Positions 1,734 to 52,280 are shown, counted from the first letter of the stretch. The stretch is 64,000 nucleotides of DNA from Halomicroarcula saliterrae (GCF_031624395.1 NZ_JAMQON010000003.1:186001-250000); one strand, 5' to 3'. The notes: a model not told the origin generated them from the letters alone. Program-made: numbers and translations.

Positions 1734-4429
1734 CTGGCACACACACCGACGACGACCCGCCAGCCGAATCGGACGATCAGGAAGACGTCGAGGAGATGCT
1801 CCAGGAGATAGAGCGGCGGCGGTCGCTCCAGGGCGTGGCGGCCGTGACAGTCGCCGTCGTCGGCATCTCCTTCTCGCTGTTCCAGATGTGGCTCGCCGCG
1901 AAGGGGTTCGTCCTCTCGGTGACACTGCCCGGCCTCGGCCGGTTCCAGCTCGCGGCGCTCCAGTTGCTCCAGATAAACGCCGTCCACGTGGCCTTCGGAC
2001 TGGTGCTCGCGTTCCTGCTGTATCCCACGTCGACCGGCGACGGCGTGGTGAGCCGCCGGTTCGCGAGCCTCGGAACCCGGACGCGCGAGCGCCTCGGGCC
2101 GGACCACCCCGTGAGCCGCGGCGTCGACACCGTCGGCGACGGGCTGGCCTGGCTCGCCCTGGACCGCGACATGGACCGGGTGACGCCGTTCGACCTGGTC
2201 TTGATAGCTATCTCGGTGCTCGCGGCGTCGTACTTCATCACCGACTTCGCGGAGATACAGCGGATGCGCGCGCTCGGGCTGGAAGCGGGCCGGACGCTCG
2301 TGGAGGTGTATCCGCTGCTTTCGCCCGTCGCGGGGCTGCTCGGTCCGCTCGCCGACACGTCGTACGCGTTCGTTCTGGGGGTGCTGGGCGTCCTGCTCGT
2401 CCTCGAAGCGACCCGACGGGCCATCGGCCTGCCGCTGATGCTCATCGTCGCGGCCTTCGTCGTCTACGCCCGCTACGGCTACCTCATTCCGGGCGGGACC
2501 GCCTACGTCGGCGTCCTCTCTATCCCGCGGCTCGGGTGGAACTCCATCATCCAGAACCTCTGGTACAACACCGAGAACGGCGTCTTCGGGATTCCGGTCA
2601 CCGTCTCGGTGCAGTTCATCTACATCTTCATCCTCTTCGGCGCGTTCCTGGAGATGTCCGGTGCCGGCCAGTGGTTCATCGACCTCGCCTACGGCGCCAC
2701 CGGGACCCGGCGGGGCGGCCCGGCGAAAGCGAGCATCCTCGCCAGCGGGTTCATGGGCACTATCTCGGGCTCCTCTATCGCGAACACCGTTACCACCGGC
2801 GCCTTCACCATCCCGCTGATGAAGCGGTCCGGCTACCGGCCGGAGTTCGCCGGCGGCGTCGAGGCGTCGGCGTCCTCGGGCGGGCAGATACTCCCGCCGG
2901 TGATGGGCGCCGCGGCCTTCCTCATCGTCCAGTACACGGCGACGCCCTTCGCCGACGTCATCATCGCCGCCTCGATTCCCGCCATCGTCTTCTTCTTCGG
3001 CGTCTGGGTGATGGTCCACTTCGAGGCGACGAAGGAGCAGATCGGGGGGCTGGACCCCGCGGAGCTGGTCGACCTCCGCCAGCACCTCCGGAACGGCTGG
3101 TTCTACCTCGTCCCGATCAGCTTGCTGCTGTACTACCTGCTGGTCGCGCGGCTCTCGGTCGCCCGGTCGGCGTGGTTCACACTCATCGCAATCGGGGCGC
3201 TCATCACGCTCGTGGCGGCCTACAGCCACGAGACGCGGGGGCGGTTGCTCGGGCTGCTCGGGCTCCTGTTCGCGGGGACCCTCCTCGCCCAGTACCTCGC
3301 CGGCGCGGGCGTCCTCGGGGCGCTGCTGGGCGGTGGCTCCGGCGGCCAGTCGCTGCGAGCCGCCTTCGCGGCCACCGTCGGCTCGCTGGGCGGCATCGCC
3401 ATTACGGCCGGCGTGCTCACGCTCGCCACGCACCCGTACATCGACGCGCACGTCCTCGACTTCGACGATGCGGTCGACAACGCTGCCGAGCGCACCGCGA
3501 GAGTCGTCGGCAGCCCCTCCCTGACCGGCAACGGGCTCTACCGGCTGGGCACCTTCCTCGGGAAGTCGATGGAGAGCGGCGCGCGGACGGCGGTGCCGGT
3601 CGTCGTCGCCGTCGCCGCCGCTGGCATCATCCCCGGCGTCATCAGCGTCTCCGGACTGGGGCCGAACCTCGTCGCGCTCATCCGGGCGGTCGCCGGCGGC
3701 TCGCTCGTCCTGCTCTTGCTCGTGACCGCCGTCGCCTCCATCATCCTCGGGATGGGGATGCCGACGACGGTGACCTACATCATCCTGGTCTCGCTGCTCG
3801 CGCCCGCGCTGGTCACCTTCGGCGTCCCCGAGCTGGCGGCGCACCTGTTCATCCTCTACTTCGGCGTCATCGCCGACATCACACCGCCGGTGGCGGTCGC
3901 GGCCTACGCGGCCGCCGGGGTGGCCAAGTCGGACGCCTTCCAGACCGGTATCGAGGCGTTCTCGCTGTCGCTGAACAAGGCCATCGTCCCGTTCGCGTTC
4001 ATCCTCGCGCCGGGTATCGTCCTGCTCCGTCCCACGGAGCCCGGCAGCCAGATCTACCGGGTCGTCAGACTGTCGGACTTCGCCGACCCGGGCTTTGCCA
4101 TCTTCGAGGTCGCCATCCCGGTCATCGGGGTGTTCGTCGGCGTCGTGGCGCTGGCGGCGACGGTCATCGGCTTCGTCTCCGCGCCGGTCGCCCGGAGCCG
4201 GCGGGTGGCCTTCGCCGTGAGTTCACTGCTGTTGATGGCCCCCGGGCTGGCCGTCTCGGGGACCTACGACGTCCTCGGGTTCATCGGCATGGGCGGCGGC
4301 GAGATGACGCTCCTGCTGGACGTGGCGTTGCGGGCCGCGGGGCTGGCGCTCTTTGCCGTCCTGCTGGCCGAGAACCGTCGGCAGTCGGAGGGCGTCACCG
4401 AAACGACCGGGAGCCCCGAGCCCGCGTGA
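1730..4429 (+). CDS. TRAP transporter fused permease (small plus large membrane subunits)
   Basis: 899 aa polytopic membrane protein joining the small 4-helix and large 12-helix TRAP permease subunits in one chain, the arrangement normal for TAXI systems. After a charged cytoplasmic N-terminus come hydrophobic helices throughout. Two inverted-repeat transport segments of the DctM type are visible, one around residues 340-400 (GFMGTISGSSIANTV, then GGQILPPVMGAAAF) and the other near residue 674 (GMGMPTTVTYII). TRAP systems are secondary transporters driven by an ion gradient, probably Na+ here given the salty habitat. It starts within the DUF1850 stop codon, so the three genes make one transport unit. 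Confidence 0.93.
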   Translation: MTGTHTDDDPPAESDDQEDVEEMLQEIERRRSLQGVAAVTVAVVGISFSLFQMWLAAKGFVLSVTLPGLGRFQLAALQLLQINAVHVAFGLVLAFLLYPTSTGDGVVSRRFASLGTRTRERLGPDHPVSRGVDTVGDGLAWLALDRDMDRVTPFDLVLIAISVLAASYFITDFAEIQRMRALGLEAGRTLVEVYPLLSPVAGLLGPLADTSYAFVLGVLGVLLVLEATRRAIGLPLMLIVAAFVVYARYGYLIPGGTAYVGVLSIPRLGWNSIIQNLWYNTENGVFGIPVTVSVQFIYIFILFGAFLEMSGAGQWFIDLAYGATGTRRGGPAKASILASGFMGTISGSSIANTVTTGAFTIPLMKRSGYRPEFAGGVEASASSGGQILPPVMGAAAFLIVQYTATPFADVIIAASIPAIVFFFGVWVMVHFEATKEQIGGLDPAELVDLRQHLRNGWFYLVPISLLLYYLLVARLSVARSAWFTLIAIGALITLVAAYSHETRGRLLGLLGLLFAGTLLAQYLAGAGVLGALLGGGSGGQSLRAAFAATVGSLGGIAITAGVLTLATHPYIDAHVLDFDDAVDNAAERTARVVGSPSLTGNGLYRLGTFLGKSMESGARTAVPVVVAVAAAGIIPGVISVSGLGPNLVALIRAVAGGSLVLLLLVTAVASIILGMGMPTTVTYIILVSLLAPALVTFGVPELAAHLFILYFGVIADITPPVAVAAYAAAGVAKSDAFQTGIEAFSLSLNKAIVPFAFILAPGIVLLRPTEPGSQIYRVVRLSDFADPGFAIFEVAIPVIGVFVGVVALAATVIGFVSAPVARSRRVAFAVSSLLLMAPGLAVSGTYDVLGFIGMGGGEMTLLLDVALRAAGLALFAVLLAENRRQSEGVTETTGSPEPA

Positions 4430-38047: not shown

Positions 38048-38100
38048 AGCGACTCACCTCCGGTCGTCGCGCCGTCGACACGTGTCGTGTGTGCAGTCAT
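38044..38100 (-). CDS. 18-codon micro-ORF bridging argB and argD
   Basis: ATG at 38100 overlaps the argB stop as ATGA. The frame encodes MTAHTTRVDGATTGGESL and ends in a TGA that overlaps the argD GTG start as GTGA. It therefore fills the only real gap between these two genes with exact coupling at both ends and carries the argD Shine-Dalgarno sequence inside it. It may simply carry ribosomes across to argD, or the overlaps may be chance. No family known. Confidence 0.35.
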   Translation of the reverse strand: MTAHTTRVDGATTGGESL

Positions 38101-38990
38101 TGTTCCTCTGTTACAGCCCCGGCCTTGATATGTGTCCCGTCACCGTCAAGCGCTGACAGAATCGGTGTGTCCGCGTTGGCGTCGGCGACGACGGCCTCGG
38201 GCGAGCCGCCCGAAAGGGCCTCCTCGGCGGCCATTATCTTCCGGCCCATGAACCCCTCGGCGGCGGCTTCGAGTGCCTGCCAGTCGTCGCTCGTCTCGAC
38301 CGACTCGATGAGCGTCGACGGGTCGTCGGGGTCTTCGTAGACGCCGGCGACGTCGGTCAGCAGGACGAGCGTGGCGTCGAGTTCGCCGGCGATGGCCGCC
38401 GCCGAGCGGTCGGCGTCGGTGTTGACGGGAATAATCTCCCCGTCGTCGCTGTCTCGCGAGTCGCTCTGCTCCTCGCTCGACGTCTTCGAGGCGCTCCGCG
38501 CCTCGCTACCCGCCATGGGTGGAGCCGCCACCGGGGTGTAGCCGTCACCGAGCAGCGACCGGAGCAGGTCGCCGTTGACCCGCTTGATGGTGCCCGAGTG
38601 GTCGCCGCGGCGAATCTTCTTCTTGCCGTCTTCGACCACGCGGACCGCGGACTTTCGGGGGCCATAGAGCAGCTTCCCGTCGACACCGTTCAGTCCGACC
38701 GCGTCGACGCCCTCGCTCTGGAGGCCCGCGACGAGCTGGGTGTTCAGGTGACCGAAGGCCATCTCGAACACCTCCATCGTCGTCTCGTCGGTAAACCGGC
38801 CGACGACGCCGCTCGGCGTCTCGACGTACTCGGGCTCGATGCCCAGCCGTTCGAGCGTCTCGTCGACTTTGGTGGAGCCGCCGTGAACCACGACGACCTG
38901 TTCGCCCTGTTCGACGAGTGATGCGACATCCGCGAGGGCGCCGGCTGGGTCAACAGCACGGGCGCCGCCTACCTTGATTACTACAGTCAT
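38097..38990 (-). CDS. argB: [LysW]-glutamate kinase (ArgB/LysZ type)
   Basis: 297 aa amino-acid kinase that phosphorylates the carrier-bound glutamate. Motifs: IKVGGARAVDP at the N-terminus, VVHGGSTKVDETL, GLNGVDGKLL, and PVNTDADRSAAAIAGEL. Between the PVAAPPM strand and EIIPVNTDAD is an acidic Ser-rich insert of about 20 residues (GSEARSASKTSSEEQSDSRD) not expected in the family. Its DNA is a twin-hairpin element that also occurs in argX. The start lies 18 bases after the argC stop. Confidence 0.93.
   Translation of the reverse strand: MTVVIKVGGARAVDPAGALADVASLVEQGEQVVVVHGGSTKVDETLERLGIEPEYVETPSGVVGRFTDETTMEVFEMAFGHLNTQLVAGLQSEGVDAVGLNGVDGKLLYGPRKSAVRVVEDGKKKIRRGDHSGTIKRVNGDLLRSLLGDGYTPVAAPPMAGSEARSASKTSSEEQSDSRDSDDGEIIPVNTDADRSAAAIAGELDATLVLLTDVAGVYEDPDDPSTLIESVETSDDWQALEAAAEGFMGRKIMAAEEALSGGSPEAVVADANADTPILSALDGDGTHIKAGAVTEEQ
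38456..38505. repeat. twin-hairpin insert inside argB
   Basis: Hairpin B at 38456-38476: stem GCGAG/CTCGC around TCGCTCTGCTC. Hairpin A at 38487-38505: CGAGGCGC-TCC-GCGCCTCG (8 bp). The argX insert has the same order, spacing and reading frame, but both stems have changed on both sides (GCGAG/CTCGC here, GCGGG/CCCGC there), so pairing is kept. The insert is in frame and sits in a surface-loop position between two conserved strands. Confidence 0.85.
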
Positions 38991-39008
38991 GAAAATTTGC
39001 CTCGGAAG

Positions 39009-40046
39009 TCAGGGTGCGCCGACGGGGTGGAGACCCTGGAACTCCAGTCCAGCGGTCTCCTCGATGCCGAGCGCGACGTTGGCCGCGTGGACGGCCTGTC
39101 CGGCCGACCCTTTCATCATGTTGTCGATGGCCGAGAACACGACCAATCGCTTGTTGCCGGGGTCGAGCTCGAAGCCGACCTCCGCGCGGTTCGTCCCCGC
39201 GACGGCTTTGGGCTCGGGGTAGCGGTAGACGCCGCCACCGCCGGAGACGAGCTCGACGAACGGTTCGTCCTCGTACTCGCCGCGATACGCGCCCCAGAGG
39301 TCGCCTTTCGACACCGGGCCGTCGGGGAAGACGTGACAGGTCGCACTCGCGCCGCGGACCATGTCCACCGCGTGGACGGTAAAGGAGACGTTCACGCCGA
39401 GGAACTGCTGAATCTCGGCCTCGTGGCGGTGGCCCGTCGGGGCGTAGGGGCGGACGACGCCCGAGCGCTCCGGGTGGCTCGACGCCTCGCCGCCGCCGGC
39501 CCCGCCCTCGCTGGAGCCGACCTTCACGTCGACGACGATCTGCTCGTCGCCCGAGAGGACGCCGTGCTCGAAGAGCGGGAGCAAGCCCAGAATCGTCGCC
39601 GTGGCGTTACAGCCGCCCGACGCGATGAGCTCCGCGCCCGCGAGGTTGTCGCGGTTGAGCTCCGGAAGCGCGTACTCCGAGTCGGCGAGCAGTTCGGGCC
39701 GGGTGTGGCCGTCGTACCACTCGTCGTACTGTGCCTCCGTGTCGAGGCGGAAGTCTGCCGAGAGGTCGACGACGGTGTCGGCGGCGTCCTGGAAGCGGTC
39801 TATCTGCTCCATCGAGACGCCGTGGGGCGTCGCGGCGAAGAGGACGTCGACGCTCTCCAGCTCCGCCGGGTCAGAGAAGCGCAGGTCCGAGTGGCGCAGG
39901 TTCGGATGCGTGTTGCCGATCGTCTTGTTCTCCTTCGACCGGCTGGTGGCCTGTTCGAGCTCGAACTCGGGGTGGCCGTCCAGCAGGCGGAGCAGCTCGC
40001 CGCCGGTGAAACCGCTCCCCCCGACGACGCTGGCACTGTAGGTCAT
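39009..40046 (-). CDS. argC: [LysW]-glutamyl-phosphate reductase (ArgC/LysY type)
   Basis: 345 aa NADP-dependent semialdehyde dehydrogenase. The Rossmann motif is VVGGSGFTGGELLRLL at residues 7-22. The catalytic Cys is in ASGGCNATATILGL, and His in VNVSFTVHAVDMVRG follows the family pattern. AATPHGVSMEQI and VDLSADFRLD complete the set. It overlaps argX by ATGA. Confidence 0.95.
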   Translation of the reverse strand: MTYSASVVGGSGFTGGELLRLLDGHPEFELEQATSRSKENKTIGNTHPNLRHSDLRFSDPAELESVDVLFAATPHGVSMEQIDRFQDAADTVVDLSADFRLDTEAQYDEWYDGHTRPELLADSEYALPELNRDNLAGAELIASGGCNATATILGLLPLFEHGVLSGDEQIVVDVKVGSSEGGAGGGEASSHPERSGVVRPYAPTGHRHEAEIQQFLGVNVSFTVHAVDMVRGASATCHVFPDGPVSKGDLWGAYRGEYEDEPFVELVSGGGGVYRYPEPKAVAGTNRAEVGFELDPGNKRLVVFSAIDNMMKGSAGQAVHAANVALGIEETAGLEFQGLHPVGAP

Positions 40047-40978
40047 ACCGGTGTCTCCGGGCCGCTCCCGCTTTGTGCCTTCGATTCGAGCCAGTCGACG
40101 ACCTTCGCGGGGACGTCCACGTCCGAGACCTCGTTGAGCGCCTTGAACTCGACGGTGTGGTTGACCTCGTGGACCGTGTAGTCCTCGAATTCGTAGTCGC
40201 GCGGGTCGCTCTGCTCCCCGCTCGACTCCCGGGTGTCGCTCCGCGACACCCCTACCTCCATCAGGTCGATACCGAGCAGGCCGCCACCGACGGCGTCCGA
40301 AGCCTTCTCCACCAGTTCGAGCGCGCGGTCGTCCAGCTCGAAGCTGTCCGTTTCGGCGCCCTTCGCGGCGTTGGTGAGCCAGTGGTCCGACGAGCGGACC
40401 ATCGCCGCGACCGGCTCGCCGTCGACGGCGAGCACACGGATGTCACGGCCCGGTTTGTCGACGAACTCCTGGACGTAGAATATCTTGTGCTCGTAGTGGC
40501 CCAGCGTCTCCTTGTGTTCCAGAATCGCTTCGGCGGCATCACGGGAGTCGATTTTCGCCATGAGGCGACCCCACGAGCCGACGACGGGCTTCAGGACGCA
40601 GGGGTAGCCGAAGTCCTCGATGGACGCCAGTGCCGCATCCTTGGTGAAGGCCACGTCGGTGTCGGGCGTCGGGACGCCGGCCTCGACCAGCGCGAGGCTG
40701 TTCTTGACCTTGTCCGCACAGACCTCGGCCACGTCGGGACCGTTGACGACGGGCACGTCGTAGGCCTTCGCGAACTTGGTCGCGTAGACGCTCCGTGAGG
40801 TCGACAGACAGCGGTCGACGACGATGTCGAGGTCGTCGAAGGCCTCGGGGGCCTCGCTGATGTTGAACTGTTGCTTGCGGACGTCGATCTTCTCGACGTC
40901 GTGGTCGCGCTCGCGCAGTTCCGAGAGCAGGAGCTTCTCGTCCTTGCGGATGCGTGAGTAGAGGAGTCCGACGTTCAT
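40043..40978 (-). CDS. argX: glutamate--LysW ligase (ArgX/LysX)
   Basis: 311 aa ATP-grasp ligase that attaches glutamate to the C-terminal Glu of LysW. The opening is MNVGLLYSRIRKDEKLLL; ATP-grasp segments are YPCVLKPVVGSWGRLMAKI and YVQEFVDKPGRDIRVLAVDG, and the metal site is GIDLMEV plus HEVNHTVEFKAL. Between MEV and YTVHEVNH is an insert (GVSRSDTRESSGEQSDPRD) encoded by the same twin-hairpin repeat as in argB. It lies directly after the GIDLME metal ligands yet seems tolerated. Confidence 0.94.
   Translation of the reverse strand: MNVGLLYSRIRKDEKLLLSELRERDHDVEKIDVRKQQFNISEAPEAFDDLDIVVDRCLSTSRSVYATKFAKAYDVPVVNGPDVAEVCADKVKNSLALVEAGVPTPDTDVAFTKDAALASIEDFGYPCVLKPVVGSWGRLMAKIDSRDAAEAILEHKETLGHYEHKIFYVQEFVDKPGRDIRVLAVDGEPVAAMVRSSDHWLTNAAKGAETDSFELDDRALELVEKASDAVGGGLLGIDLMEVGVSRSDTRESSGEQSDPRDYEFEDYTVHEVNHTVEFKALNEVSDVDVPAKVVDWLESKAQSGSGPETPV
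40201..40251. repeat. twin-hairpin insert inside argX
   Basis: Hairpin B at 40201-40221: GCGGG/CCCGC around TCGCTCTGCTC. Hairpin A at 40231-40251: GGGTGTCGC-TCC-GCGACACCC (9 bp). Read on the coding strand, 19 codons align one-for-one with those of the argB insert, sharing TCG-AGC-G(A/G)G-GAG-CAG-AGC-GAC. Stem differences between the two copies are compensatory. Confidence 0.85.
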
Positions 40979-48611: not shown

Positions 48612-51600
48612 ATGCGGGAGGCCGACGAGCGCTACTTCGAGACGCTCGAAACCGAACTCGACTCGGCGATGGCCGTCGCCGAGCGGGCCCGCGAACGGGG
48701 CGGGGACCCAAAGCCCGAGGTCGAGATTCCGACGGCGCGGGACATGGCCGACCGCGTCGAGAACATCCTCGGCATCGACGGCGTGGCCGAACGGGTCCGG
48801 GAACTAGAGGGCGAGATGTCCCGCGAAGAGGCCGCGCTGGAACTGGTCGACGACTTCGTCGAGGGCACCGTCGGCGACTACGACACCCGCGAGGGGAAAG
48901 TCGAGGGAGCGGTCCGGACTGCGGTCGCGCTGCTGACCGAAGGCGTGGTCGCGGCCCCTATCGAGGGTATCGACCGCGTCGAACTGCTGGAGAACGACGA
49001 CGGGACGGAGTTCATCAACGTCTACTACGCCGGCCCCATCCGCTCGGCGGGCGGGACCGCACAGGCGCTCTCCGTCCTCGTCGCCGACTACGCCCGGGCG
49101 CTGCTGGGCATCGAGCAGTACGAGGCCCGCGACGAGGAGATCGGCCGCTACGCCGAGGAGGTCGACCTCTACGACAAGGACACCGGGCTCCAGTACTCGC
49201 CCAAGGAGAAGGAGACGAAGTTCATCGCCGAGAACATGCCCATCATGCTGGACGGCGAGGCCACGGGCGACGAGGAGGTGTCGGGCTACCGGGACCTCGA
49301 ACGGGTGGACTCGAACTCCGCCCGCGGCGGGATGTGTCTCGTCCTCGCCGAGGGTATCGCCCTCAAAGCCCCGAAGATCCAGCGCTACACCCGCAATCTG
49401 GACGAGGTCGACTGGCCGTGGCTGCAGGACCTCATCGACGGGACGATAGGGGACAGCGACGGCGACGAGGGGGCGGCCTCGGACGACGGGGACGGCGACG
49501 AGGAGGGCGAGGACAGCGGAGCGGACGGCGGCGACGAGCGCTCGGGGCCGCCCCGCGTCGAGCCCGCGAAGAAGTACCTCCGCGACCTCATCGCCGGCCG
49601 GCCCGTCTTCTCGCACCCCTCGAAGTCCGGAGGCTTTCGGCTGCGCTACGGCCGCGCACGCAACCACGGCTTCGCGACCGCGGGCGTCCATCCGGCGACG
49701 ATGCATCTGGTCGACGACTTCCTCGCGACCGGGACGCAGATAAAGACCGAACGGCCGGGGAAAGCCGCCGGCGTCGTCCCCGTCGACTCCATCGAGGGAC
49801 CGACGGTGCTGCTCGCGAACGGCGACGTCCGGCGCATCGACGACATGGAGGAGGCCCTGGAAGTGCGCAACGGCGTCGAGAAGATACTGGACCTGGGCGA
49901 GTATCTCGTCAACTACGGCGAGTTCGTCGAGAACAACCACCCGCTCGCGCCCGCGTCCTACACCGTCGAGTGGTGGGAACAGGACTTCGACGCCGCCGGC
50001 GCGGACGTACAGGCGATGCGGGACGACCCCGGCATCGACCTCGCCGACCCGGACAGCGAGGAGGCCCTCGACTGGGCCACGGAGTACGACGCCCCGCTGC
50101 ACCCGAAGTACACCTATCTCTGGCACGACGTGAGCATCGAGCAACTGGGGGCGCTGGCCGACGCTATCGACGACGGGGAGGTCGCGGCGACCGACGGGGC
50201 GCGCGAGACCCGGCCGTCGGCCGGGTCTCGGAACGGCGAGCGGGGAGATGCCGAGCGACCCGCGAGCGGGGACGGCAACGGCGACCTCGTCTTGCCGATG
50301 ACCGACCCCGTCCAGCAGGCGCTCGAACGGCTGCTCGTCGAGCACACGCAGACCGAGGAGCGTATCGTCGTCTCCGACTGGCTCCCGCTGGTCCGCACGC
50401 TCGGGTTCAGTCGCTCGCTGGAACGGGACTGGACCGTCGAGGACCTCTCCGAGCACGCCCGGACCTACGGCGAGCAGGAGGAGAGCGACGCCATCGGCTA
50501 CGTCGACGACGAGCTGGGCGACGAGGCGGGCCGGAACGCCATCGAAGCGGTCAACGAGATATCCCCCTTCGAGGTCCGCGAGCGGGCGCCGACCCGCATC
50601 GGCAACCGGATGGGGCGCCCCGAGAAGTCCGAGCGCCGGGACCTCTCGCCGGCAGTGCACACGCTCTTTCCCATCGGCGAGGCCGGCGGCTCACAGCGCA
50701 GCGTCGCCGACGCGACGAAACACGCCGACTCGATGAGCGACACCCCGGGCCGCGTCGAGGTGGAGGTGGCCCGTCGGCGCTGTCCCGACTGCGGCACCGA
50801 GGGCCACGAAGCCCGCTGTCCGTCGTGTGACGCGCTCGCCGAGACCATCTACGTCTGTCCGGACTGCGAGATGGAGGTCGAACCCGACGAGTCCGGCCGG
50901 GCCGAGTGCCAGCGCTGTGAGACGCTGGCGTCGCCGACCCAGTACAAGGAACTGGACCTGCAGGCCATCTACCGGGAGGCCCTGCGAAGCGCCGAGGAAC
51001 GGGAGACGGCCTTCGAGACGCTGAAAGCGGTCAAGGGCCTCACGAGCGAGGCCAAGCTCCCCGAACCGATGGAGAAGGGCGTCCTCCGGGCGAAACACGA
51101 CGTCTCGGCGTTCAAGGACGGCACCGTCCGCTACGACATGACCGACCTGCCGGTGACGGCGCTGCGCCCGGCCGAACTCGACGTCGAGCCAGAGCGCCTG
51201 CGCCATCTGGGCTACGAGACAGACATCCACGGCGACCCACTCACGCATCCGGACCAGCTGTTCGAGCTCAAGGTCCAGGACATCGTGCTCTCGAACGGCG
51301 CCGCCGAACACATGCTCCAGACCGCCGCCTTCGTCGACGACCTGCTAGAGCAGTACTACGGACTCGAACGGTACTACGAGTTCGACGACCGCGACGACCT
51401 CGTCGGCGAACTGGTCTTCGGGATGGCGCCACACACCAGTGCGGCCACAGTTGGCCGAGTTATCGGATTTACGACGGCTGCGGTCGGATACGCGCATCCG
51501 TACTTTCACGCCGCGAAGAGAAGGAACTGCGATGGTGACGAAGATTGCGTGATGCTCCTGATGGATGGTTTGTTGAATTTTAGTAAATCATATTTACCTG

Positions 51601-52280
51601 ACAAACGCGGCGGTCGGATGGACGCTCCGCTCGTCATGTCCTCGCGCATCGACCCCTCCGAAATCGACGACGAGGCCCACAACATGGACATCATGGACCG
51701 GTACCCCCGCGAGTTCTACGAGGCGACGCGGGAACTCACCGACCCCGCGGAGGTCGAGGACATCATGACGATAGCGGAGGAGACGCTGGGCACGGACCGC
51801 GAGTACACCGATTTCCGCCACACCCACGACACCACGAACATCGCCGCGGGGCCGGACCTCTCGGCGTACAAGACGCTGGGGTCGATGGAGGAGAAGATGG
51901 ACGCCCAGCTGCATCTCTCCCGCAAGCTGCGGGCCGTCGTCGAGTCCGACGTGGCCGAACGCATCATCGAGTACCACTTCCTGCCCGACCTCATCGGGAA
52001 CCTGCGGGCCTTTTCGCGGCAGGAAGTGCGCTGTCTGGACTGCGGCGAGAAGTACCGGCGGATGCCCCTGACCGGCGACTGCCGGGAGTGTGGCGGCCGC
52101 GTCAATCTGACCGTCCACCAGGGGTCGGTCAACAAGTACATCGACACTGCGATTCGCGTCGCCGACGAGTTCGGCGCCCGAGACTACACCAAACAGCGGT
52201 TGCAGATTCTGGAGCGGAAAATCGAGTCGGTGTTCCAGAACGACCACAACAAGCAGTCCGGCATCGCTGATTTCATGTAA
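48612..52280 (+). CDS. polD2: DNA polymerase D large subunit (DP2)
   Basis: 1222 aa catalytic subunit of the archaeal replicative polymerase. N-terminal blocks include YYAGPIRSAGGTAQALSVL; internal zinc motifs are RRCPDCGTEGHEARCPSCD, CPDCEMEV and CQRC (about residues 720-775). The catalytic double-psi barrel has HPYFHAAKRRNCDGDED, with Cys973, Asp974 and Asp976 at the acidic core, followed by PDKRGGRMDAPLV. A C-terminal zinc finger (CLDCGEKYRR, CRECGG) is near residue 1140. No intein is present, but DNA around the intein site is AT-rich. Two acidic or Arg-rich inserts (near residues 280 and 530-550) add length; the second is a twin-hairpin repeat. Confidence 0.96.
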   Translation: MREADERYFETLETELDSAMAVAERARERGGDPKPEVEIPTARDMADRVENILGIDGVAERVRELEGEMSREEAALELVDDFVEGTVGDYDTREGKVEGAVRTAVALLTEGVVAAPIEGIDRVELLENDDGTEFINVYYAGPIRSAGGTAQALSVLVADYARALLGIEQYEARDEEIGRYAEEVDLYDKDTGLQYSPKEKETKFIAENMPIMLDGEATGDEEVSGYRDLERVDSNSARGGMCLVLAEGIALKAPKIQRYTRNLDEVDWPWLQDLIDGTIGDSDGDEGAASDDGDGDEEGEDSGADGGDERSGPPRVEPAKKYLRDLIAGRPVFSHPSKSGGFRLRYGRARNHGFATAGVHPATMHLVDDFLATGTQIKTERPGKAAGVVPVDSIEGPTVLLANGDVRRIDDMEEALEVRNGVEKILDLGEYLVNYGEFVENNHPLAPASYTVEWWEQDFDAAGADVQAMRDDPGIDLADPDSEEALDWATEYDAPLHPKYTYLWHDVSIEQLGALADAIDDGEVAATDGARETRPSAGSRNGERGDAERPASGDGNGDLVLPMTDPVQQALERLLVEHTQTEERIVVSDWLPLVRTLGFSRSLERDWTVEDLSEHARTYGEQEESDAIGYVDDELGDEAGRNAIEAVNEISPFEVRERAPTRIGNRMGRPEKSERRDLSPAVHTLFPIGEAGGSQRSVADATKHADSMSDTPGRVEVEVARRRCPDCGTEGHEARCPSCDALAETIYVCPDCEMEVEPDESGRAECQRCETLASPTQYKELDLQAIYREALRSAEERETAFETLKAVKGLTSEAKLPEPMEKGVLRAKHDVSAFKDGTVRYDMTDLPVTALRPAELDVEPERLRHLGYETDIHGDPLTHPDQLFELKVQDIVLSNGAAEHMLQTAAFVDDLLEQYYGLERYYEFDDRDDLVGELVFGMAPHTSAATVGRVIGFTTAAVGYAHPYFHAAKRRNCDGDEDCVMLLMDGLLNFSKSYLPDKRGGRMDAPLVMSSRIDPSEIDDEAHNMDIMDRYPREFYEATRELTDPAEVEDIMTIAEETLGTDREYTDFRHTHDTTNIAAGPDLSAYKTLGSMEEKMDAQLHLSRKLRAVVESDVAERIIEYHFLPDLIGNLRAFSRQEVRCLDCGEKYRRMPLTGDCRECGGRVNLTVHQGSVNKYIDTAIRVADEFGARDYTKQRLQILERKIESVFQNDHNKQSGIADFM
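50204..50263. repeat. twin-hairpin insert inside polD2
   Basis: Hairpin A at 50204-50230: CGAGACCCGGCC-GTC-GGCCGGGTCTCG, a perfect 12-bp stem. Then a 9-base spacer, and hairpin B at 50240-50263: GCGGG/CCCGC with a 14-nt head GAGATGCCGAGCGA. argX has the same order on its coding strand, the same 9-base spacer and the same B stem (GCGGGGAGCAGAGCGACCCGC). Here B begins at codon position 3; in argB and argX it begins at position 2, so the peptide (RETRPSAGSRNGERGDAERP) is unrelated. Confidence 0.8.
51440..51612. other. AT-rich recoded patch around the DP2 intein site
   Basis: Protein sequence is fully conserved DP2, but the codons are foreign to the gene: AGA and AGG for Arg, GAT, TGT-like and TTG, AAT, TTT, AGT, AAA, TCA, TAT, TTA, CCT. 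In 51541-51600 only 21 of 60 bases are G or C, against GC-rich sequence on both sides. The patch straddles the AAC/TGC boundary at 51527/51528 (RRN before CDGDED), where DP2 inteins are known to sit. Confidence 0.8.

Follow-up and report, generated by a model that had tools for sequence, protein, structure and literature searches.

We describe a short twin-hairpin DNA element that lies in frame within unrelated protein-coding genes of haloarchaea, starting from two of its copies in a 64,000-nucleotide stretch of the genome of Halomicroarcula saliterrae (GCF_031624395.1, NZ_JAMQON010000003.1:186001-250000; hereafter, the window). The copies in argB and argX represent one and the same element of ~54–60 bp, and their sequences can be aligned in register, 60 nucleotides against 60. 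What is conserved among the copies is the nucleic-acid fold rather than the encoded peptide, and we regard it as very likely that the copies constitute a mobile structured family. The initial annotation of the window had suggested a mobile structured repeat that is tolerated within coding sequence, a suggestion that is now supported by sporadic occurrence among orthologues, by many unrelated host genes, and by copies nested within other copies.

The first copy (38448..38507, minus strand) encodes SEARSASKTSSEEQSDSRDS and lies in argB/lysZ (38097..38990, minus strand), a member of the amino acid kinase family. Its folding, a covariance-model match with an expectation value (E) of 1.9e-8 in a search of the whole genome, and a site that is empty in most relatives all mark it as an insert. 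The second copy (40193..40252, minus strand) encodes GVSRSDTRESSGEQSDPRDY (covariance-model E 4.6e-9) and lies in argX (40043..40978, minus strand), an ATP-grasp gene of the LysX/ArgX family. On the coding strand both copies consist of hairpin A, with a stem of 8–9 bp and a GGA loop, followed by a short linker and hairpin B. Hairpin A is formed in argB by CGAGGCGC-GGA-GCGCCTCG (38487..38505, minus strand; 8 bp with a GNA triloop) and in argX by GGGTGTCGC-GGA-GCGACACCC (40231..40251, minus strand; 9 bp). Hairpin B begins with an outer helix of 3 bp, followed by a tandem GA/GA mismatch, an inner helix of 5 bp, another GA/GA, GC, the loop AGA, and GC. It reads GTC-GA-GCGAG-(GA GC AGA GC GA)-CTCGC-GA-GAC in argB (38451..38481, minus strand; outer 3 bp, GA/GA mismatch and inner 5 bp) and GTC-GA-GCGGG-(GA GC AGA GC GA)-CCCGC-GC-GAC in argX (40196..40226, minus strand). 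The 21-nucleotide head GTCGCTCTGCTCCYCGCTCGA occurs exactly twice in the 64 kb, where 0.03 occurrences are expected from shuffled sequences, and the coding strand of both inserts folds more stably than shuffled sequence (z = -3.2 for argB and -5.7 for argX).

Most of what the initial annotation had said about these two inserts holds, including their location in the two genes, their in-frame alignment, the kept head, the stem sequences of both hairpins, and the assignment of the hosts to two unrelated folds (AA_kinase and ATP-grasp). Some details required refinement: the inserts span about 20 codons instead of about 19, with the limits and strand given above, and the description of the hairpins, correct as far as it went, lacked the additional outer 3-bp helix of hairpin B and the fact that in argX the first two codons of the insert coincide with native Gly-Val codons (GV), which are shared with the outer 5' arm of stem A. 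In the homologues LysZ (3wwm, for ArgB) and LysX (3vpd, for ArgX), the place of the insert is a connection of only a few residues.

It is the fold that is conserved and not the peptide, because the two arms of the stems covary at positions that change amino acids while the loop positions vary freely. Among 113 aligned copies, standard base pairs occupy 92.5% of the pair cells compared to 75.2% after shuffling, and double changes number 251 compared to 65 and are found in 13 of the 17 pairs, figures that are favored somewhat by the fact that this alignment was fitted to the structure. Sliding one partner by 1–3 columns destroys the pairing signal, and an all-against-all scan of the columns from 61 independent sites, flanks included, returns pairs of the structural model in all of its top nine places. 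The outer 3-bp helix of hairpin B, closed by the GA/GA mismatch, covaries as well. At many of the covarying positions, the bases in both arms of the stem are first or second in their codons, and the resulting peptides include SEARSAS, SESRSDS, GVSRSDT, SGPQSGP, RVAGTAT and RAERSSA. The earlier argument that covariation favors folded DNA or RNA over the peptide is thereby borne out. GNA-type triloops are present in about 55% of copies; GNA triloops closed by GC, like tandem GA mismatches, stabilize hairpins of single-stranded DNA.

Searches with exact patterns, using either the head or hairpin B, recover few copies because the stems vary, a problem that was solved by a covariance model derived from 12 alleles of ArgB and ArgX. 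The initial annotation had proposed such a search and had considered the case that no further copies exist; the model finds many, in unrelated genes. The genome of H. saliterrae itself has 18–21 credible copies (E below about 0.1–0.2). Every one of the 32 genomes of the genus has copies (4–36 each), as do 115 of 155 genomes of the order, distributed over 40 of 57 genera, with E-values in relatives down to 1e-11; the counts per genome are minimum values, since scoring was restricted to a limited number of candidates. In a sample of 148 genomes from the whole phylum there are 15 with matches, all of them within the haloarchaeal order. Copies were examined at 48 distinct coding sites, a count that was made on copies in the standard codon phase and consequently measures the diversity of hosts, not the bias in frame. 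Additional host genes are found across the order. Copies outside genes are a minority and some of them stand in tandem arrays. Arrays of 48–61 bp units made of the same hairpin modules are seen outside genes or at gene ends in L101/L103/L110 (own genome, G000:C3:499593-499761) and in L102/L104 (G000:C2:58155-58279).

Evidence for movement comes from comparison of alleles, for which 80 named haloarchaeal loci were fetched via ArgC, encoded between argB and argX. Close relatives with and without the inserts are interspersed for both ArgB and ArgX. The canonical ArgB insert is present in 5 of the 28 genus genomes with a readable region, and the canonical ArgX element in roughly a dozen of 31, with some further ArgX alleles decayed or differently filled; the alignment across haloarchaea that the initial annotation had proposed thus shows sporadic inserts. 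Related inserts occupy the same ArgB and ArgX loops in other genera (Halapricum, Halorientalis, Halorhabdus). In the trpB-trpA region of the genus (L320-L351), trpB has three insertion sites (middle, late, and C-terminal) and trpA has a single site; which species are filled and which are empty differs from site to site. Two argX alleles (L272, L289) hold a second element within hairpin B of the first, and these nested copies are direct evidence that the element moves. Comparison of filled and empty pairs, with junctions read by eye, indicates a net gain of ~24–57 bp with local replacement of codons and no clean duplication.

The ArgX loop holds other hairpins as well. Inserts with quite different stems, several of them with GNA-type triloops, occur there in Halogranum, Haloferax denitrificans, Halorientalis and Halobellus (L032, L037, L053, L073) and are possibly other subfamilies of the element. 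Two argX alleles that do not have the twin element (L279, L283) still form a hairpin around the same codons (GGGTGTCG-GAAGA-CGACACCC in L279), which is either a decayed copy or a precursor.

The window contains a third copy, overlooked in the initial annotation, at 50202..50271 on the plus strand (R1 32 bits, E 1.6e-4). Its host is a 1222-aa open reading frame (ORF; 48612..52280, plus strand) that, judging by its sequence, probably encodes the large subunit of DNA polymerase D (polD2). Hairpin A (50204-50230, plus strand) has a 12-bp stem, CGAGACCCGGCC/GGCCGGGTCTCG, and hairpin B (50236-50267, plus strand) reads GC-GA-GCGGG...CCCGC-GA-GC in a codon phase that differs from the standard. The polD2 copy is more diverged than those in argB and argX.

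Copies within genes are strongly biased in orientation and frame. Among 104 copies assigned to ORFs, 96 lie on the coding strand in a single codon phase; of the eight exceptions, four occupy sites where orthologues have the standard phase, and the remainder are ambiguous or intergenic. Phase can also shift inside a copy; the polD2 copy and the SRAG/GRAAEP variants have hairpin B in another phase. The dominant frame has the peptide consensus SEARSASxxSSGDEPRxx with a net charge of -4, compared to 0 to +7 in the other five frames, and is the only one that encodes an acidic, hydrophilic peptide. Since no other frame is acidic, selection on haloarchaeal proteins could account well enough for the bias, and the almost exclusive use of one acidic frame means that the peptide matters to some extent. 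Intergenic copies with a callable upstream gene are on the same strand as that gene in 12 of 13 cases, and where the two flanking genes are co-directional the copies follow them 7 to 1; the numbers are small and the gene calls heuristic. These counts hint that copies are oriented with transcription also where they encode no peptide.

The fate of the element after insertion can be read from fourfold degenerate sites. In orthologous copies found by the model, 2 of 160 comparisons at such sites in stem A reveal a difference, compared to 444 of 1319 in flanking codons, while the loops differ freely; this contrast (1.3% versus 34%) exaggerates the constraint, since the scores of decayed copies are too low for detection and the set is consequently biased toward intact stems. 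In sets of orthologues defined by the gene instead, stem sites differ in 0 of 64 cases for ArgB and TrpA, with 0.36–0.38 in the flanks, and for ArgX, where decayed alleles are included, the values are 0.16 in the stems and 0.34 in the flanks (0.15 and 0.34 for all sites). One TrpB site that mixes two element types has no contrast between stem and flank. Intact stems thus last long yet also decay.

A candidate for the mover is offered by the ends of haloarchaeal IS200/IS605 transposons. A transposon with tnpA and tnpB (L257, L258) has hairpins of the type GCGA-stem-loop-stem'-GAGC near both ends; in L257 they lie at 1326-1360 and 3091-3112, have the form GCGA-stem-GTCA-stem'-GAGC, and have tandem GA/GA mismatches on either side. 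This hairpin recurs, with compensating changes in the stem, at a similar distance downstream of tnpB in several further loci (L291, L292, L297, L309, L315, L317, L318), and hairpin B of a nested argX copy (GCGAACGGCGACAGCCGTGAGC) differs from the right-end hairpin of L257 at 1 of 22 bases. The likeness to IS605 ends is confined to hairpin B. It points to recognition of hairpin B and of IS605 ends by the same class of enzyme, and suggests transposition as single-stranded DNA in trans. We therefore propose an IS200/IS605-type enzyme as the mover, given that hairpin B has the build of the terminal hairpins of haloarchaeal tnpA/tnpB elements, with GA/GA tandem mismatches on both sides of the stem and GC at the foot, although we do so tentatively and would rate this part of the account as somewhat short of probable.

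The explanation that we favor as a whole is that the family consists of short non-autonomous mobile DNA elements, 51–60 bp long with two hairpins in fixed order on one strand, and that copies would move as folded single-stranded DNA, most likely by the action in trans of an HUH transposase of the IS200/IS605 type (Y1, TnpA). Selection would then filter the insertions, as the observed frame alone provides an acidic, hydrophilic and stop-free peptide that a haloarchaeal loop may be able to carry, and an inserted element would slowly decay. We hold this combined explanation with moderate confidence. Several observations weigh against it. The Y1 transposase (PF01797) is absent from the genome of H. 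saliterrae itself; across the order it is present in 62 of 115 genomes with copies and 21 of 40 without (Fisher p = 1), and within the genus the number of copies is uncorrelated with the number of Y1 genes (Spearman 0.02). The flanks contain no conserved target tetranucleotide, their profiles having a weak preference for GAY upstream and G downstream, and the all-column scan of 61 sites reveals no guide-target covariation between flank and element. As to a guide sequence, the outer triplet at the 5' foot of hairpin B pairs with the triplet 3' of hairpin B, as a right-end guide would, and does not pair with the flanks. The element ends without the extended termini of IS200/IS605 elements, no insertion within a species was caught, and a filter acting on the peptide does not account for the strand preference seen in copies outside genes.

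Alternatively, no transposase would be involved and copies would arise by template switching during replication or repair between short shared words, such as the GCGAG at element ends and targets, with filled alleles spread by gene exchange between species. (A)GCGAG stands at the start of the element and CGCGAG at its end, the TrpA, TrpB-end and nested argX pairs are compatible with short junction matches and replacement of local codons, and the presence of Y1 is unlinked to the element. We nevertheless consider this origin rather unlikely, as the matches at the junctions were assessed by eye, with words that occur often in GC-rich DNA, and as template switching explains neither the IS605 terminal build of hairpin B nor why the two hairpins always occur together. 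A further possibility is that the hairpins are kept for a role of the host at the RNA level (mRNA stability, pausing, or definition of 3' ends), the copies being domesticated regulatory elements and not passengers. The quiet fourfold sites of stem A, those of the gene-defined ArgB and TrpA sets among them, and the sense orientation of intergenic copies agree with such a role. However, the model-found set is biased, the contrast shrinks in the gene-defined sets (ArgX, and all sites taken together), which include decayed and truncated alleles, any given site is without the insert in most species and has no apparent replacement there, and the intergenic gene calls are few and heuristic; we judge a regulatory role unlikely. 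To a similar degree we doubt a scenario in which a selfish hairpin element spreads independently of a transposase and specifically in the sense of transcription, for example by being copied via single-stranded or RNA intermediates from transcribed genes, its sense frame is tuned to encode an acidic linker compatible with halophilic proteins, and the fold is subsequently selected inside dozens of core genes.

Two other readings fare worse than these. If the peptide itself were conserved, as an acidic disordered loop module that is useful in salt and is shuffled between proteins, then the dominance of one frame and the existence of a peptide consensus would follow, but the covarying stems change amino acids on both sides, the fourfold sites in the stems are quiet, and non-coding copies exist. 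This is a very improbable reading, and we reject conservation of the peptide as such because both partners of a pair have changed at positions that alter the amino acid. Hairpins of high GC content abound in genomes of this kind and could in principle arise by chance or from GC bias; the double occurrence of the 21-nucleotide head, the E-values, and the lack of matches outside the order in the phylum sample leave a negligible probability for this origin of the copies.

With respect to known systems, the element is closest in kind to the palindromic elements of Rickettsia (RPE), short palindromic mobile repeats that lie in frame in many unrelated and often essential protein genes, with filled and empty orthologues (PMC10969869). 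The haloarchaeal element resembles them in its in-frame position in several unrelated genes (the 48 sites), its use of one frame and strand (96 of 104), and its empty orthologous sites. RPEs differ in being ~150 bp long and bacterial, whereas the present element has 51–60 bp, two hairpins, stems that change in step, and an order-wide range. A relation in sequence is unlikely given the lengths, the GC content and the host groups. The PATEs of Haloquadratum, in the part of their description used here (PMC3119063), are transposase-free elements derived from IS605, with palindromes like IS605 ends and no clear target duplication, and 52-bp versions reduced to the termini may be mobile. Our element is likewise haloarchaeal, transposase-free, and endowed with a palindrome (hairpin B) related to IS605 ends. 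In-frame inserts do not figure in that part of the PATE account, the core-deleted 52-bp form keeps one palindrome where our element has two (PMC3119063), and the extended termini and the target oligonucleotide are missing from our copies.

Many-copy short hairpins and a suspected HUH enzyme are also features of the REP/BIME/REPIN sequences with their RAYT proteins. REPs lie outside genes, with a conserved GTAG/GTGG 5' of the foot of the hairpin (PMC6006769), in contrast to the mostly intragenic element with its twin hairpins in direct order. No fixed tetranucleotide is found 5' of hairpin A or hairpin B, the linker columns being variable, and unlike REP systems with their resident RAYT the genome of H. 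saliterrae has no RAYT/Y1 gene. The SMRs of Haloquadratum (80–110 bp) and haloarchaeal MITEs are, in the portion of the same account drawn on here, similarly short, transposase-free, and inserted into other elements (PMC3119063). They have terminal inverted repeats, whereas the present element combines diverged sequence with a conserved fold and has no terminal inverted repeat and, in the filled and empty pairs, no clean target-site duplication. The initial annotation knew of no named haloarchaeal family that matches, and we likewise find no match in Rfam at the elements even at E <= 5 and no earlier description in the open-access literature, a scope that makes this weak evidence of absence. 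As a kind, they belong with mobile palindromic elements that insert in frame; the present ones are archaeal, range over the whole order, and are defined by their fold, not by their sequence.

The family is unusual in that, within coding sequence, base pairing takes precedence over conservation of the amino acids, and it opens to test whether IS605-type hairpins are mobilized in trans in archaea or move by another route. It is a source of variation in protein length, and annotators could mistake its inserts for functional loops. Core biosynthetic enzymes (ArgB, ArgX, TrpA, TrpB) have repeatedly taken up the same loop insert of ~18 residues, and the sites form a natural collection of positions at which well-studied enzymes tolerate an insert. 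For the archaeal order as a whole, the family amounts to an additional class of mobile DNA that is pervasive and apparently unnamed.

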